NCBI RefSeq assembly: GCF_002288525.1
Contig: NZ_CP023067.1
Span: forward strand, 930,001-994,000
DNA: 64,000 nucleotides
Origin: Sinorhizobium sojae CCBAU 05684
Lineage (GTDB): Bacteria; Pseudomonadota; Alphaproteobacteria; Rhizobiales; Rhizobiaceae
Reading direction: 5' to 3'
Shown: one piece after another, positions 6,882-15,916 of the stretch
How the letters are laid out: every line of letters starts with the position of its first letter
How positions within the stretch are numbered: the first letter of the stretch is position 1
Notes under the pieces: generated by a model
The model's input: only the letters and a program-made list of their open reading frames with translations
Told to the model about the DNA's origin: nothing
The model's database searches: none
Translations under genes and position numbers: made by a program

Positions 6882-8192
6882 ATGGCCGCGGCGACGGAAG
6901 AGCAAGCAAAGGCAGCCGCCCCGGCGGGCGCGTCTTCCAGCCGTCCCTTCTCCGCCTTCGAGCGCATGGTCGCCTGGCGGTACCTGCGCTCACGGCGGAA
7001 GGAGGCCTTCATCTCGGTCATTGCCGGTTTTTCTTTCACCGGCATCATGCTCGGCGTGGCGACGCTGATCATCGTCATGGCGGTGATGAACGGTTTCCGT
7101 ACCGAGCTCATCTCGCGTATCCTCGGCATGAACGGCCATGTCATCGTACAACCGCTCGATGGTCCGCTCACCGATTATGCCGATCTTGCCGCGCGGTTCT
7201 CCGCCGTTCCGGGCGTGACCATGGCAATCCCGACCGTCGAGGGGCAAGTGCTTGCCCAGGGCATCGGCGATGCTTCGACGGGTGCGCTGGTTCGCGGCGT
7301 GAGGGCGGATGATCTCTCGAAGATGAAGTCGATATCGGAACATATCGTTTCCGGCGATCTCGTCGGCTTCGCGTCCGGCAGCGGCATCGCCATCGGGTCG
7401 CGAATGGCGGACCAGTTGGGCGTTACCGTCGGTGGCACGGTCACGCTGACCTCACCGAACGGCGACGTGACTCCGCTCGGGATGAACCCGCGCATCAAGG
7501 CCTACACGATTTCGGCGATATTCGAGGTCGGCATGTCGGAATATGATGCGACCATCATCTTCATGCCGCTCGAGGAGGCGCAGCTCTATTTCAATGCGGA
7601 CGGGCTCGTTCAATCGATCGAGCTCTTCGTCGAACATCCCGATTCCGTCGACGATCTGCGCCAGCCGCTCGAGGAGGCCGCCGGCCGGCAGGTCTTCATC
7701 ACAGACTGGCGGGATCGCAACAAGACATTCTTCTCCGCGCTCTCGGTCGAACGCAACGTGATGTTCATGATCCTGACGCTGATCGTCCTGGTGGCGGCTC
7801 TCAACATCGTCTCGGGCCTGATCATGCTGGTCAAGGACAAGGGCAGCGACATCGCCATCCTGCGCACCATGGGCGCGACTTCGGGCGCCGTGATGCGGAT
7901 ATTCTTCATGACAGGTGCCGCGATCGGCGTGGCGGGGACGGTGGCCGGCGTCGCGCTCGGGGTAATCGTCTGCCTGAACATCGAATCGATCCGCCAGTTC
8001 TTCTCGTGGCTGTCCGGGGCGACACTCTTCGATCCGGAGCTCTATTTCCTGAGCCAGTTGCCGGCGGACATGAATGTCGACGAGACCATCGCGGTTATCG
8101 TCATGGCGCTGGCGCTCTCCTTCCTCGCGACGATCTTTCCGGCCTGGCGCGCCTCGCGCCTCGATCCGGTGCAGGCCTTGCGGTACGAATAA
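6882..8192 (+). CDS. lolE: Lipoprotein-releasing ABC transporter permease (LolC/LolE family)
   Basis: Inner-membrane subunit that releases outer-membrane lipoproteins to LolA together with LolD. At 436 residues it has the family layout: one N-terminal membrane helix (~48-75) following a short basic stretch ([20 protein letters not shown]), a long periplasmic MacB-like domain (~80-285), and three C-terminal helices in the FtsX domain (~290-425). Alphaproteobacteria usually have this single permease in place of the LolC/LolE pair, so the symbol is chosen by convention. It is followed 17 bases later by lolD. Confidence 0.9.
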
Positions 8193-8209: not shown

Positions 8210-8896
8210 ATGAATGCGCGCGTGGCACTGCAGCTCTCGGCCGTCGAGCGGCACTATGGCGAGGGCGACACCTTCCTGCCGATCCTCAAGGGCGTCGACC
8301 TGACGTTGCGGCGCGGCGAGACCGTGGCGCTGGTGGCGCCGTCCGGCACGGGGAAGTCGACGCTGCTGCACGTCGCGGGGCTTCTCGAACATCCGGACGG
8401 GGGCGATGTCATCGTGAATGGCATGGCCTGCAACGGCCTTAGCGACGACCGGCGCACCGCGATCCGCCGCAACGAGATCGGCTTCGTCTACCAGTTCCAC
8501 CATCTCCTGCCGGAATTCTCGGCGCTGGAGAACATCATGATGCCGCAGTTGATCGCCGGCCTTGCGAAGGCGGAGGCGGCGGAGCGCGCAAGTGCGTTAT
8601 TGGACTATATGCGCATTGGCCATCGCGCTTCCCACCGCCCGACCGAGCTTTCCGGCGGCGAGCAGCAGCGCGTCGCGATCGCTCGCGCGGTCGCCAATGC
8701 GCCGCTCATTCTGCTGGCCGACGAGCCGACCGGTAATCTCGATCCCGAGACGGCGGGCTATGTGTTCGAGGCGTTGGAAGCGCTGGCTCGACAGTCCGGC
8801 CTTGCGTCGCTGATCGCCACGCATAATCACGAACTTGCCTCGCTCATGGACCGCCGCGTGACGATCGAGGACGGCAAGATAGTCGAACTGGAATAA
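8210..8896 (+). CDS. lolD: Lipoprotein-releasing ABC transporter ATP-binding protein
   Basis: ATPase partner of the preceding permease. The protein has 228 residues with Walker [10 protein letters not shown] (~43-51), Q-loop [10 protein letters not shown], signature LSGGEQQR, Walker [13 protein letters not shown] and the H-loop IATHNHE. The frame is open much further upstream into lolE, but ATG 8210 (preceded by AGAAGCGG) gives the correct N-terminus and leaves a 17-base gap after lolE. The LolD-specific motif around [21 protein letters not shown] supports LolD over other MacB-type ATPases. Confidence 0.92.
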
Positions 8897-9236: not shown

Positions 9237-9490
9237 GATGAGCATCCCTCGATCCGCGCCGAGAATGGCGAAAGCAACCGTTCTTGCAAAGAACGAAAAG
9301 AGAAGCATGCGGGTTGCTGGCGAAGGGCTGGTTCGCTTCCGGATGTGGTTCGTCCTCGTGTGTCGTTCGAACGGCTTCGCTGTGAAGGTCCCCGCTGGGG
9401 CTCGGGGCCGCGGATGACTTGCACGCCGTCCGGTTGCGTTAACCATAGCCGATGAATAGCGGGCGTTTCATTCGCCCTTGCTTGACTATC
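9237..9490. other. Intergenic region upstream of the SOS-type peptide gene
   Basis: No gene seen. It contains a TTAACCAT octamer at 9439-9446, the sequence of a CtrA half-site in Caulobacter, and a TTGACT hexamer at 9482-9487 that could be the -35 box for the small gene at 9539. A short TTCTTGCAAAGAA inverted repeat lies near 9282-9294. All regulatory readings are by motif only. Confidence 0.35.
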
Positions 9491-9516
9491 GAACAAAAAT
9501 GGAACAAAAGTAGAAC
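9491..9516 (+). promoter_or_regulatory. Triple LexA half-site (GAAC-N7-GAAC-N7-GAAC)
   Basis: Direct repeats GAAC at 9491-9494, 9502-9505 and 9513-9516, each separated by exactly 7 bases, forming two overlapping alphaproteobacterial LexA boxes at 11-bp period. A TTGACT -35-like hexamer lies just upstream (9482-9487), so a bound repressor would cover the promoter. The same motif precedes dinB in this window, which supports the reading. Confidence 0.8.
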
Positions 9517-9538
9517 AATAGCGGAAAGGAGCCATGTT

Positions 9539-9625
9539 ATGACAGATTTCGTTCGTGATCTTGCTGCCTTCGCATCGATGACGCTCTTCATCGTGAGCGT
9601 TTCGGTGATCGCACTGGGCATGTGA
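9539..9625 (+). CDS. 28-aa single-pass membrane peptide under a LexA box (candidate SOS division inhibitor)
   Basis: A short gene with a strong Shine-Dalgarno (GGAAAGGAG at about 9523-9531) before the ATG at 9539. The peptide is MTDFVRDLAAFASM followed by a hydrophobic stretch TLFIVSVSVIALGM, giving an N-terminal charged segment (D3, R6, D7) and one predicted membrane helix over about residues 9-28. It sits 23 bases after the triple LexA half-site. Caulobacter SidA is an SOS-induced membrane peptide of similar size (29 aa) that blocks FtsW/FtsN; similarity here is in size, topology and regulation only, since sequence homology could not be tested. An overlapping ATG at 9534 reads only two codons (ATG TTA TGA). 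Alternative: a leader peptide for dnaE 130 bases downstream. Confidence 0.65.
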   Translation: MTDFVRDLAAFASMTLFIVSVSVIALGM

Positions 9626-9755
9626 TTCCCTTCTTCCCCGGAATGCATCCCACCGGACTCGCCGGCTGAAAAATTCCCCGTCCCGGCTGCAAGACTGGAC
9701 AGTCGGGACCGGAAACGGGATATGCTCCGCACCGGACAGGAATCGGAGTGCGACG

Positions 9756-12700
9756 ATGGCAAATGGCGAAGGCACTGGGCAGGACATCACGGGTGCAGAG
9801 AATCCGCAATTCGTCCATCTGCGTGTGCACTCCGCCTATTCGCTGCTCGAGGGCGCGCTGCCGCTCAAGAAGATTCTTGGCAAGGCGGTTGCCGATGACC
9901 AGCCGGCGATCGGCATAGCCGACACCAACAACCTGTTCGCGGCGCTGGAATTCTCCCAGAAAGCGGCAGACGACGGATTGCAGCCGATCATCGGTTGTCA
10001 GCTCTCCATCGATATGGAGGACGAGGATGGCGAGCGGCGGGGGCACGCACAGCAGTTAGCGAAGCTGCCCGCAATCGTCCTCATCGCCGCGACCGAGGCC
10101 GGTTATGCGCGACTCGTCCACCTCGTCAGCCGCGCCTATCTCGACGGCGAAGGACACCAGGCGGCGCGGATCACGCGTTCATGGCTTGCTGATGGTGGAA
10201 CGGAAGGGCTGATCGCCTTGACGGGCGCTGCCGGCGGCCCCGTCGACATCGCGCTCAAGGCCGGCTCGCAGCAGCTTGCCGAGTCGCGGCTCAAGGTGCT
10301 CTTCGCGCTTTTCGGCGATCGCCTCTATGTCGAACTGCAACGGCAAGGCAATTACGACCGGCGTCACGAGAGCCGCATGGTGGAGCTTGCCTATCGCAAC
10401 GACGTTCCGCTCGTTGCGACCAACGAGGCCTTCTTTCCTTCGCCCGCTGACTATGACGCCCATGATGCCCTGATGGCCGTTGCCCATAATGCCGTCGTCT
10501 CGGACGACAGCCGGTTCCGACTGACGCCGGACCACTATCTGAAAAGCCGCAAGGAAATGGCGGCGCTTTTTGCCGATCTGCCGGAGGCGCTGGAGCATAC
10601 GGTCGAGATCGCGCGCCGCTGCTCTTTCATGCTCAATACGTGCAAACCGATCCTGCCGCGCTTTACCGGCGGCTCGGACGATCCGGAGGAAGCCGAGCGC
10701 GCGGAAGCGGCGGAGCTGCGCCGGCAGGCGGAGGAGGGGCTAGATCTCCGCCTGGCCAAGCTCGGCATGGCGCCCGGCTACAAGGAAGAGGATTACCGCG
10801 AGCGGCTGGGCTTCGAGCTCAGCGTCATCGAGCGCATGAAGTTCCCGGGCTACTTCCTGATCGTTGCGGACTTTATCAAATGGGCCAAGGAGCATGACAT
10901 TCCGGTCGGTCCCGGCCGTGGCTCGGGCGCCGGCTCGCTGGTCGCCTATGCGCTGACGATCACCGATGTCGATCCGATGCGCTTTTCGTTGCTGTTCGAG
11001 CGCTTCCTCAATCCCGAGCGCGTATCGATGCCGGACTTCGACATCGACTTCTGCCAGGACCGGCGCGAGGAGGTCATCCGCTACGTCCAGCGCAAATACG
11101 GACGCGAGCAGGTGGCGCAGATCATCACCTTCGGTTCGTTGCAGGCGCGCGCGGCGCTGCGTGACGTCGGCCGGGTGCTGGAAATGCCTTACGGGCAGGT
11201 CGACAAGATCTGCAAACTTGTGCCGAACAACCCGGCCAACCCGACCCCGCTGTCGAAAGCGATCGAGGAGGAGCCGCGCCTGCAGGAGGAGGCGGAGAAG
11301 GAGCCTGTCGTCGCCCGCCTGCTCGACATCGCGCAGAAGATCGAGGGTCTCTATCGTCACGCCTCGACCCATGCGGCCGGTATCGTTATCGGCGATCGGC
11401 CGCTGTCGCAGCTCGTGCCGATGTATCGCGATCCGCGTTCGGATATGCCGGTAACACAGTTCAACATGAAGTGGGTGGAGCAGGCCGGTCTCGTCAAATT
11501 CGACTTTCTCGGCCTGAAGACGCTGACGGTGCTGAAGACTGCCGTCGACTTCGTCGCCAAGCGTGGCATCGAGGTTGATCTTGCCAGCATCCCGCTCGAC
11601 GATCCGAAGACCTACGAAATTCTCTCCCGCGGCGAAACGGTCGGCGTGTTCCAGGTGGAAAGTGCCGGTATGCGCAAGGCGCTGATCGGCATGCGCCCGG
11701 ACTGTATCGAGGACATCATCGCACTCGTCGCGCTCTACCGCCCGGGACCGATGGAGAACATCCCGGTCTACAACGCCCGCAAGCATGGCGAGGAAGAGAT
11801 TGAATCCATTCACCCGAAGATCGATTACCTGCTCAAGGAAACCCAGGGCGTTATCGTCTATCAGGAGCAGGTGATGCAGATCGCTCAGGTGCTCTCGGGC
11901 TATTCGCTCGGCGAAGCGGACCTGCTGCGCCGCGCCATGGGCAAGAAGATCAAGGAGGAGATGGACAAGCAGCGCGCCCGCTTTGTCGACGGCGCGGTTC
12001 AGAACGGCGTCTCCAAGCCACAGGCGAACCTGATCTTCGACCTGCTCGCGAAATTCGCGAATTACGGCTTCAACAAGTCTCACGCGGCCGCCTATGCCAT
12101 CGTCTCATACCAGACCGCCTTTATGAAGGCGCACTATCCGGTCGAGTTCCTGGCGGCCTCCATGACGCTCGACATGTCGAATACGGAGAAGATCAACGAC
12201 TTTCGCCAGGACGCCAAGCGCCTCGGCATCGAGGTGATCGCGCCCTCGGTGCAGACGTCGTTCCGTTACTTCGAGACCGGCGACAACCGCATCTATTATT
12301 CGCTCGCGGCGATCAAGGGCGTGGGCGAGTCGGCCGTCGACCATATCGTCGAGGTTCGTGGTGACCGATCCTTCGCGAGCCTTGAGGACTTCTGCCTCCG
12401 GATCGATCCGAAGCTTTTGAACCGGCGCGTCTTCGAGAGTCTGATCGCCGCCGGTGCCTTCGACTGCTTCGGCTACGATCGGGCCGAGCTCATTGGCGGG
12501 CTCGACCGCATCCTCGGCTTTTCGCAGCGTGCCCAGGAGAACAAGGTGAGCGGCCAGAGCGACATGTTCGGAGCCGGCGCTGCGACCGGTCCCGAAAAGA
12601 TCGTGCTGCCGCCCTATACGCCCTGGCTCGCCTCCGAGAAACTGCATCGGGAATTCCAGGTGCTCGGCTTCTATCTCTCCGCCCATCCGCTCGATACCTA

Positions 12701-13250
12701 CAACAAACTGCTCGAGAAAATGCGGGTGCAGACATTCGGCGATTTCTCCGCTGCGGTGAAAAAGGGTGCCACCGCCGGCCGGCTCGCGGGGACTGTGACA
12801 TCGAAACAGGAGCGTAAGACGCGCACCGGCAACAAGATGGGAATCGTCGCCTTTTCCGACGCCTCCGGTCAGTTCGAGGCGGTCCTCTTCTCGGAAATCC
12901 TGCACCAGAACCGCGATTTGCTGGAGCCGGGCAAATCGCTGGTGATGACGGTGGATGCCGAGGAGCGACCGGAGGGCATCGGTCTTCGCATCCGCACGCT
13001 TCGATCGCTCGAGGAGGAATCGCTGCAGATGCAGAAGGCGCTGCGCGTTTATGTGCGCGATTCCGGCCCCTTGCGCTCGATTGCCTCCCACCTCAACACG
13101 AAGGGGGACGGCTTGGTTTCCTTCATCGTCATCAAGGATAAGGGCCAGCGGGAAATCGAGGTCGAACTTAGCGAGAAATACCGGATATCGCCGGAAATCG
13201 CCGCGGCTCTCCGTTCTGCCCCCGGCGTTCTCGACGTCGAGCTGGTTTAA
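9756..13250 (+). CDS. dnaE: DNA polymerase III subunit alpha
   Basis: Replicative polymerase catalytic subunit of the DnaE1 type, 1164 residues. Order of domains: N-terminal PHP domain (VHLRVHSAYSLLEGAL near 24-39), then the C-family polymerase core with GPGRGSGAGSLVAYAL (~385-400) and the catalytic aspartates in MPDFDIDFCQDRR (~425). After these come the fingers (FNKSHAAAYAIVSYQTAFMKAHYP), the helix-hairpin-helix and the OB domain (AGTVTSKQERKTRTGNKMG). The ATG at 9756 lies 130 bases after the LexA-boxed small gene. It ends 5 bases before the convergent L,D-transpeptidase gene with no obvious terminator between them. Confidence 0.96.
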   Translation: MANGEGTGQDITGAENPQFVHLRVHSAYSLLEGALPLKKILGKAVADDQPAIGIADTNNLFAALEFSQKAADDGLQPIIGCQLSIDMEDEDGERRGHAQQLAKLPAIVLIAATEAGYARLVHLVSRAYLDGEGHQAARITRSWLADGGTEGLIALTGAAGGPVDIALKAGSQQLAESRLKVLFALFGDRLYVELQRQGNYDRRHESRMVELAYRNDVPLVATNEAFFPSPADYDAHDALMAVAHNAVVSDDSRFRLTPDHYLKSRKEMAALFADLPEALEHTVEIARRCSFMLNTCKPILPRFTGGSDDPEEAERAEAAELRRQAEEGLDLRLAKLGMAPGYKEEDYRERLGFELSVIERMKFPGYFLIVADFIKWAKEHDIPVGPGRGSGAGSLVAYALTITDVDPMRFSLLFERFLNPERVSMPDFDIDFCQDRREEVIRYVQRKYGREQVAQIITFGSLQARAALRDVGRVLEMPYGQVDKICKLVPNNPANPTPLSKAIEEEPRLQEEAEKEPVVARLLDIAQKIEGLYRHASTHAAGIVIGDRPLSQLVPMYRDPRSDMPVTQFNMKWVEQAGLVKFDFLGLKTLTVLKTAVDFVAKRGIEVDLASIPLDDPKTYEILSRGETVGVFQVESAGMRKALIGMRPDCIEDIIALVALYRPGPMENIPVYNARKHGEEEIESIHPKIDYLLKETQGVIVYQEQVMQIAQVLSGYSLGEADLLRRAMGKKIKEEMDKQRARFVDGAVQNGVSKPQANLIFDLLAKFANYGFNKSHAAAYAIVSYQTAFMKAHYPVEFLAASMTLDMSNTEKINDFRQDAKRLGIEVIAPSVQTSFRYFETGDNRIYYSLAAIKGVGESAVDHIVEVRGDRSFASLEDFCLRIDPKLLNRRVFESLIAAGAFDCFGYDRAELIGGLDRILGFSQRAQENKVSGQSDMFGAGAATGPEKIVLPPYTPWLASEKLHREFQVLGFYLSAHPLDTYNKLLEKMRVQTFGDFSAAVKKGATAGRLAGTVTSKQERKTRTGNKMGIVAFSDASGQFEAVLFSEILHQNRDLLEPGKSLVMTVDAEERPEGIGLRIRTLRSLEEESLQMQKALRVYVRDSGPLRSIASHLNTKGDGLVSFIVIKDKGQREIEVELSEKYRISPEIAAALRSAPGVLDVELV

Positions 13251-14479: not shown

Positions 14480-14603
14480 GACAAACCCTCATTTCCGATG
14501 GCGGCGTCTCCAAACGGCGCGCAGACCGTGACACACCGGAGTTGTCGAGCCAGGCTATCCTTCAATATTTAAGGAATTGAATCCTGGCGCCGGCTATCAC
14601 GGG

Positions 14604-15896
14604 CTATTGATCGCGGCGCCTTTGGCCGAAGGTATAACCCGTCTCGACGCTGGTCTTGCCGAACCTGTCGTGCAGCTTGTTGATCGCCTCCTCGGCGGCC
14701 GCCCGTCGCGCTGCAGAGGGATCCACGAGATCCGGCGGATCGGCAAGGACGGGATCGCAAAGATCGCTGACGCCGATGCCGATCAGCCTGTATCTCGTCC
14801 CGTCGACTTCTCTCTCGAGCAATTGCAGGCCGGTGCGGAAAATCCGGTCGGCAAGGCGGGTGGGGCTGTCCAAGCGCCGGTTGCGCGTACGGGATCTGAA
14901 GTCGGCCGTCTTCAATTTCAGGACGACGGTCTGTCCGGCGAGTTCGGATTTGCGCAGCCTGAGCGCCACCTGCTCGCTCAGGCGCCTGAGATGCGGGATG
15001 AGTTCCTCCGGGCGAGACAGGTCGACATTGAAGGTCGTTTCCGAGGAAACGCTTTTTGCCTCTCCGCCAGTCTCGACGCTGCGTTCGTCCTGGCCGCGCG
15101 AAAGCCGGTAAAGCCGCTGACCCATCGTGCCGTAGCGGCGCATCAGTTCGGCCTCTTCCATCGTCTGCAACTGCCCGATCGTGCGGATGCCATCCCGCTC
15201 GAGCGTCGCGGCGAAGGCCTTACCGACACCCCAGATCAAGGTGACGGGACGCTCCTTCAGGAAGTCAACGGCTTCGGCCTGGCCGATGACGGAGAAGCCG
15301 CGCGGCTTCTGCAGGTCAGAGGCGACCTTGGCGAGGAACTTGCAGTAGGAGAGGCCGATCGAGACTGTGATGCCGACTTCCTGCTCGACGCGCCGGGCGA
15401 AGCGGGCCAGCGTCCGGGCGGGCGGGGCGTGATGCAGCCGGTCCGTGCCGCTCAAATCGAGGAAGGCCTCGTCGATCGACAGCGGCTCTACGAGTGGCGT
15501 CAGTTCCAGCATCATGGCCCTGACCTTGCGCCCGACACGGGAATACTTCTCCATGTCGGGCTTGATTACCACCGCCTCGGGGCAGGCCTCGAGTGCCTTG
15601 AACATGGGCATGGCCGAGCGCACGCCATGAATGCGGGCGATGTAGCAGGCGGTCGAGACAACGCCGCGTTTGCCGCCGCCGATGATGACCGGTCTGTCGG
15701 CGAGCTCCGGATTGTCGCGTTTCTCGATCGAGGCGTAGAAGGCGTCGCAGTCGATATGCGCCAGCATCAGCCCGTAGAGCTCGGCGTGGTGCAGGAGACG
15801 CGGACTGCCGCAGGTGCGGCACCGCCGGGCGAGGGCGGCCTGTTCCTTCAGGCAGTCTCGGCAGAAGCCCGGAATCGCTGCAGTGCTGTCTCGCAT
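14604..15896 (-). CDS. dinB: DNA polymerase IV with N-terminal Cys4 extension
   Basis: Y-family translesion polymerase, 430 residues. Catalytic motifs are [13 protein letters not shown] (near 47-59) and [11 protein letters not shown] (near 150). The little-finger domain is C-terminal ([19 protein letters not shown] onward). Ahead of the polymerase fold there is an unusual ~45-residue extension with CRDC at 12-15 and CRTC at 26-29 (CX2C-X10-CX2C), which looks like a small zinc-binding unit; the start at 15896 includes it. A LexA box lies 6-20 bases upstream of the start codon, so the gene is very likely SOS-induced. The C-terminal beta-clamp-binding motif is not clear to me. Confidence 0.92.
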
Positions 15897-15901
15897 GTCT
15901 G

Positions 15902-15916
15902 GAACAAATGTTGAAC
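15902..15916 (-). promoter_or_regulatory. LexA box of dinB
   Basis: GAAC-AAATGTT-GAAC on the plus strand (GTTC-N7-GTTC on the dinB strand), immediately upstream of the dinB start codon. It matches the alphaproteobacterial LexA consensus exactly. The closeness to the ATG (6 bases) means the transcript start lies within or beyond it. Confidence 0.8.

Follow-up and report, generated by a model that had tools for sequence, protein, structure and literature searches.

A 28-residue membrane-peptide gene with predicted LexA boxes upstream of dnaE1 in Sinorhizobium sojae: a candidate rhizobial ortholog of Caulobacter sidA

Between the lolC-lolD genes and dnaE1 of Sinorhizobium sojae CCBAU 05684 (genome size 6.09 Mb) we find a 28-codon membrane-peptide gene with its promoter elements, at 9482-9625 of the 64,000-nucleotide stretch of DNA analysed here (‘the window’). 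By its position and by remote sequence similarity, this gene appears to be the rhizobial ortholog of Caulobacter sidA. The first-pass annotation of this DNA had put the peptide forward as a candidate counterpart of SidA—a proposal to which the position next to dnaE, an ungapped similarity, purifying selection and a class-wide range now all lend support. The best explanation of the locus as a whole, and one that we consider probable, is that of a rhizobial sidA ortholog serving as an SOS-controlled brake on division. To our knowledge, no gene is known for the damage-induced division arrest of rhizobia; none was seen among the matches listed for the open-licence literature, nor did we recognise among these a paper tying SidA to rhizobia (the 2011 SidA paper may discuss homologs).

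Working along the window from lolC, the features of the locus are as follows:

6882-8192, plus strand: lolC-type permease; the S. meliloti annotation has a ‘lipoprotein-releasing ABC transporter permease subunit’ at the same place
8210-8896, plus strand: lolD-type ABC ATPase, the upstream neighbour; its S. meliloti equivalent is annotated as ‘ABC transporter ATP-binding protein’
9439-9446, plus strand: TTAACCAT, a CtrA-like motif conserved in the genus, which we take to be a CtrA site
9482-9487, plus strand: TTGACT, a -35-like element, retained in 31 of 32 genus loci
9491-9505, plus strand: predicted LexA box 1, GAAC-N7-GAAC
9502-9516, plus strand: predicted LexA box 2, overlapping box 1; its third half-site, GAAC, lies at 9513-9516
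9525-9531, plus strand: Shine-Dalgarno sequence AAAGGAG, 7 nt 5' of the ATG; 7/7 columns without variation across the 32 genus loci
9539-9625, plus strand: putative sidA-type gene for a 28-aa single-helix peptide; ATG at 9539, stop codon ending at 9625
9756-13250, plus strand: dnaE1, the replicative DNA polymerase III alpha subunit and our synteny anchor (TIGR00594, 1198 bits over cut-off); dnaE is also named at the equivalent place in the S. meliloti Ak57 annotation

The three GAAC half-sites that the first-pass annotation described, with their 11-bp period, are present at 9491, 9502 and 9513, and amount to two overlapping GAAC-N7-GAAC boxes; the TTGACT ahead of them and the strong Shine-Dalgarno sequence behind them are likewise borne out. 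A single box is weak evidence, being near the level of chance (4 in the window vs 1.8 expected; 178 genome-wide vs 139 for the reversed control pattern); not so the triple, which occurs once in the window against a mean of 0.01 over 100 shuffles. LexA is likely to bind the boxes of the peptide gene, since lexA and recA of the same genome carry a GAAC-N7-GAAC box of the same form upstream. Conservation of all three half-sites, as the annotation had envisaged, holds in part: the exact triple is kept in 19/32 genus loci and is missing from the remainder, the third half-site reading AAAC in several members of the genus. Outside the genus, where 31 of 37 loci examined passed selection (two had a misplaced start), TTGAC lies within 75 nt of the start in 26/31; a consensus scan of 9380-9800 gave no sigma-70-type promoter pair, the -10 element not being obvious. 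TTAACCAT, which the annotation suggested could add a cell-cycle signal, is a constant feature of the genus, present in all 32 loci between -125 and -80 relative to the start codon; outside it, this motif or TTAA-N7-TTAA was found within 300 nt upstream in just 3/31 loci. The element may represent a genus-specific cell-cycle input, either to the peptide gene or to dnaE1. Elsewhere in the window, GAAC-N7-GAAC recurs at two further places, 15902 and 59546. The first of these (GAACAAATGTTGAAC, 15902-15916) begins 43 nt ahead of 15945, the earliest point at which a 449-aa same-strand ORF could start; it also overlaps the tail of an ORF at 14577-15914.

The peptide itself, MTDFVRDLAAFASMTLFIVSVSVIALGM, is of 28 aa, and its best 19-residue hydropathy window spans residues 8-26 (Kyte-Doolittle mean 2.35), so that the earlier description of a 28-codon gene with one hydrophobic helix is upheld; in length, and in a single transmembrane helix as predicted by hydropathy, it resembles the roughly 29-aa form of SidA. 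The tblastn check that had been suggested turns out in its favour. A search of 33 genomes of the genus, its own included, returned 32 loci, the gene being found in 31 of the 32 other genomes at 79-96 percent identity (the sole miss is a genome 85 percent complete); both the frame and at least one exact LexA box are kept in 32/32, which settles that the observation is real. Among the 27 distinct ORFs of these loci there is no in-frame stop, both other frames are closed in 27/27, and variable sites fall 11/2/22 over codon positions 1/2/3; mean dN is 0.053 and mean dS 0.632 (ratio of means 0.084; 350 usable of 351 pairs). Invariant columns make up 47 percent of the 60 nt upstream and 58 percent of the ORF; the 87 nt beyond the stop have not a single one (stop-codon columns themselves excluded). 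The gene is protein-coding, and its amino acids are under strong purifying selection. An in-frame extension to 57 codons could be read from an ATG at 9452; we prefer the 28-aa start, because the extension passes through the boxes and the open frame has no constant length across the genus (34-84 aa). A match to DUF5345 (PF17280) at E 0.024 and 15.3 bits, against a cut-off of 27, was set aside.

For comparison we turned to Caulobacteraceae, records of which were found by means of an RpoB segment of the best-matching PDB chain (80 kept of 120); the chain, 7ye1, we take to be that of C. crescentus, as C. vibrioides records at 100 percent bear out, and among 52 class-sample genomes 51 matched the segment, none above 71 percent over its full length. 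DnaE was sought in 20 of the family's records and matched in 19, and in 19/19 we see an ORF of 29-30 aa directly upstream of dnaE; in 14/19 its start lies 29-65 nt downstream of an exact LexA box. The C. vibrioides ORF, of 29 aa, matches the NCBIfam SidA model NF033228 at 72.4 bits (cut-off 35), and the Phenylobacterium ORF matches it at 56.3 bits; the ORF at this place in Caulobacter and its relatives is SidA itself. The match accords with the 29 residues reported for that protein (PMC4211646), and also with the published loci of sidA, CCNA_02004 (PMC11034885), and Caulobacter dnaE, CC1926 (PMC1839093); no open-licence paper placing the two side by side was found, and the NF033228 match serves instead.

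Like sidA, the window gene lies immediately 5' of dnaE and in the same orientation, has an exact (predicted) LexA box at the promoter, and codes for a single helix; the peptides, of 28 and 29 aa, agree at R6, D/E7, A10, S13 and F17 when those of the window and C. vibrioides are lined up from Met1. There are also differences: the window peptide lacks W19 and C22, invariant in 12 SidA peptides; its promoter, unlike that of sidA, has three tandem half-sites; and in part of the window's family the peptide gene, again unlike sidA, has no close dnaE downstream. Aligning 18 peptides of the window's order with 12 of Caulobacteraceae, hhalign gave a probability of 81.6 (E 1.1e-5) over 23 ungapped columns from Met1. 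When 14 + 11 peptides of standard length were compared at the eleven offsets from -5 to +5, the mean score was positive at zero and at no other offset; permuting columns inside the N-terminal segment and the helix segment did equally well in 121 of 100000 trials. Against the order's profile, the median for the 12 Caulobacteraceae peptides is 15.1 bits, and no hydrophobic control ORF rises above 3.5 bits (126 tried, 118 scored). SidA of C. vibrioides gets 7.8 bits (E 0.19), which is exceeded by 6 of the 1161 shuffled Caulobacteraceae peptides that scored; two shuffles, at 17.8 and 18.3 bits, outscore 10/12 of the real ones. Since shuffles can rival the real scores in this way, the sequence alone would not carry kinship with SidA, and similarity between the window's group and SidA, taken by itself, is modest, albeit confined to one register. 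Conversely, the window peptide gave no match to NF033228 at E<=1 or E<=10 (the membership cut-off being 35 bits), and neither it nor eight other members from outside Caulobacteraceae matched anything in NCBIfam at E 10. It is for these reasons—a modest signal and no NCBIfam match—that we name the gene as a putative positional ortholog and diverged variant, not as a member of the curated family.

In the mechanism that we propose, LexA sitting on the overlapping GAAC-N7-GAAC boxes would repress the gene, until DNA damage leads to RecA-driven cleavage of LexA (as established for the SOS system generally) and so frees the promoter. The 28-aa peptide would then be translated from its own strong ribosome site, use its one helix to insert into the inner membrane, and keep the FtsW-centred septal wall complex inactive, such that division waits for repair. 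We infer these steps—induction, membrane insertion, the FtsW target and division arrest—from the boxes and from SidA; descent and control together suggest a SidA-like role, and we think it fairly probable that the peptide, as a candidate division inhibitor, does what SidA does. SidA keeps the FtsW/FtsI/FtsN complex inactive (PMC4211646), and has been modelled on TM7 of FtsW, in models not of high confidence (PMC13396833). The first-pass annotation had SidA acting through FtsW and FtsN: the former is indeed its partner, the latter that of DidA (PMC4211646).

DidA is a second small, damage-induced membrane inhibitor of division in Caulobacter, which also acts on the FtsW/I/N complex but differs in its 71 aa, its independence of SOS and its binding to FtsN; the comparison is through the paper, not the sequence (PMC4211646). 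YneA, SosA, ChiZ, DivS and SulA, likened here by description, likewise inhibit division and are induced by damage or by SOS; it is the transmembrane domain of YneA that binds FtsW, though both YneA and ChiZ differ in having a LysM domain (PMC13396833), and SulA differs in its target, FtsZ (PMC9578287). It is conceivable, but in our estimation unlikely, that the window peptide is an SOS-induced membrane peptide of another kind, such as a toxin or a regulator of another membrane protein, and no inhibitor of the divisome: SOS control and one short helix would be common to it and to the E. coli SOS peptide DinQ, which is toxic and has a single helix (PMC3567139), and its drift in sequence from SidA is large, yet it has both its place and an ungapped similarity in common with SidA.

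The SidA-type reading also gains a link to a laboratory strain. Ribo-seq of S. meliloti 2011 documented a translated sORF25 in the dnaE1 5'-UTR, reported without a function (PMC10117765). The main text of that paper contains no occurrence of LexA, SOS, mitomycin or DNA damage, and the Ribo-seq cultures were exponential, so some translation seems to take place without known damage (PMC10117765). In S. meliloti Ak57 a 28-aa ortholog stands in the dnaE1 5' interval, where a ribosome site and, like those of the window, three GAAC half-sites precede it; as four other plus-strand ORFs of at least 20 aa touch this interval, sORF25 is probably, and no more than probably, the same gene in this close relative. 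The PLSDB gene table, itself incomplete, lists no gene at the ortholog's place in Ak57. The Ak57 record concerned, CP090106.1, is titled pSymB, and looks like a mislabelled chromosome given its 3.7 Mb and its proS, lolCD-type genes and dnaE.

Translation of a small ORF at this place would also suit a dnaE1 leader peptide, an upstream ORF tuning translation of the polymerase with an amino-acid sequence of little importance; the upstream-ORF idea has been raised for such sORFs (PMC10117765), and the consensus scan of 9380-9800, ORF-dnaE1 interval included, found no intrinsic terminator between the two. We hold this to be improbable: constraint on the amino acids is strong, the stretch from stop to dnaE1 is without an invariant column in the genus, and the fold of this spacer is nothing unusual (z-score -1.46). 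Linkage to dnaE, moreover, fails within the family. A search for the triple box in 297 family genomes, from which 20 loci with A/T-rich spacers were chosen among the matches listed, showed the boxes to be followed by a similar peptide, 28-32 aa long, in 19/20 (the exception, L253, is a triple-box locus without such a peptide). In 5 of these 19, dnaE lies within about 2 kb downstream; 8 have lolC/lolD before and no dnaE after, and in 6 neither lolC/lolD nor dnaE was seen. The 14 loci without dnaE within about 2 kb downstream (9 genera) keep both boxes and length: L234, L235, L236, L237, L238, L239, L240, L241, L244, L245, L249, L250, L251 and L252 all have a triple-boxed 28-aa peptide, with Q6 before D7 in place of the window's R6 (14/19 of these other boxed loci). 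For three of them, from one genus, dnaE is on another contig or far away, and in the rest it could lie beyond the stretch fetched. Since 14/19 boxed loci have no close dnaE, the boxes go with the peptide gene and not with dnaE; as read from these sequences, the gene stands on its own predicted promoter.

Within the order, 20 further loci from the BLAST list have the match upstream of dnaE and on the same strand in 19 cases, with an exact box, counted by eye, in 16/20; two were not counted as members (L051, with neither start codon nor box, and L057, without dnaE), leaving 18. A profile of these 18 peptides, run on 150 genomes of the order at E<=0.01, gave 37 matches, 34 of them on the strand of dnaE and no more than 1 kb ahead of it, the other three coming from one genus; leaving out the four genomes that contributed profile rows, 30/33 are at dnaE. 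Over the class, DnaE was matched in 147/153 sampled genomes, and the upstream kilobase was taken for 60 of these 147 (the top of the score list, very small genomes being mostly passed over). GAAC-N7-GAAC in the sense of the gene occurs in 14/60 of these regions, vs 7 in the reverse orientation and 1-3 with each of four control patterns. In 13/60, the box is succeeded, before dnaE, by a ribosome-site-like match and then a small hydrophobic ORF; some of these regions share a genus, and a few, e.g. L097, have an uncertain start codon. L070, L072, L078, L083, L099 and L112, from other alphaproteobacterial families, have such LexA-boxed micro-ORFs before dnaE, of 33-47 aa as called; the two sampled have no NCBIfam name.

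Many related genomes gave no hit in these surveys: 113/150 in the order have no profile match at E<=0.01, and 47/60 of the class-wide regions upstream of dnaE have no exact box plus peptide. This would suit a history in which the gene has its place and control in common with sidA by descent, yet another inhibitor has replaced it as the main division brake of rhizobia, but purifying selection and the keeping of boxes in 32/32 genus loci make such a replacement very improbable. That a chance ORF should stand beside chance GAAC repeats we reject outright, since, common as single boxes are by chance, a triple box is expected 0.01 times and the ORF shows codon-level conservation, dN/dS included.

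On a broader view, we lean, by a little, towards sidA being an ancestral alphaproteobacterial checkpoint gene that arose beside dnaE, with one damage-controlled promoter region linking the replicative polymerase to the division brake; it would since have evolved too fast for curated models, become unlinked from dnaE in part of Rhizobiaceae, and passed, minus its LexA box, into rhizobial phages as an inhibitor of division. If true, SidA turns from a narrow into a wide family; the residues kept in a 28-residue inhibitor are shown (in most members, R, K or Q at position 6, D/E7, A10, S13 and F17); and nature provides a series of minimal candidate FtsW-binding peptides. As a named candidate, the window gene is directly testable: it comes with a promoter and a start codon, and its ortholog exists in a laboratory strain.

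Peptides of 42 aa, annotated as hypothetical and 46-50 percent identical to that of the window, are encoded by two Rhizobium phages (B1VFA, L258, 2480-2608; V1VFA-S, L259, 1480-1608) and by a 119-kb replicon of R. beringeri, pRlX6 (L122, 2980-3108). The similar gene order in all three loci suggests a phage-plasmid, and the peptide is possibly a phage-borne division inhibitor of the SidA type. Each of these genes is preceded by a strong ribosome site, and its 120 upstream nt contain no LexA box; in the two phage genomes, GAAC-N7-GAAC is found 1.26 kb upstream of the peptide gene, before the preceding gene.
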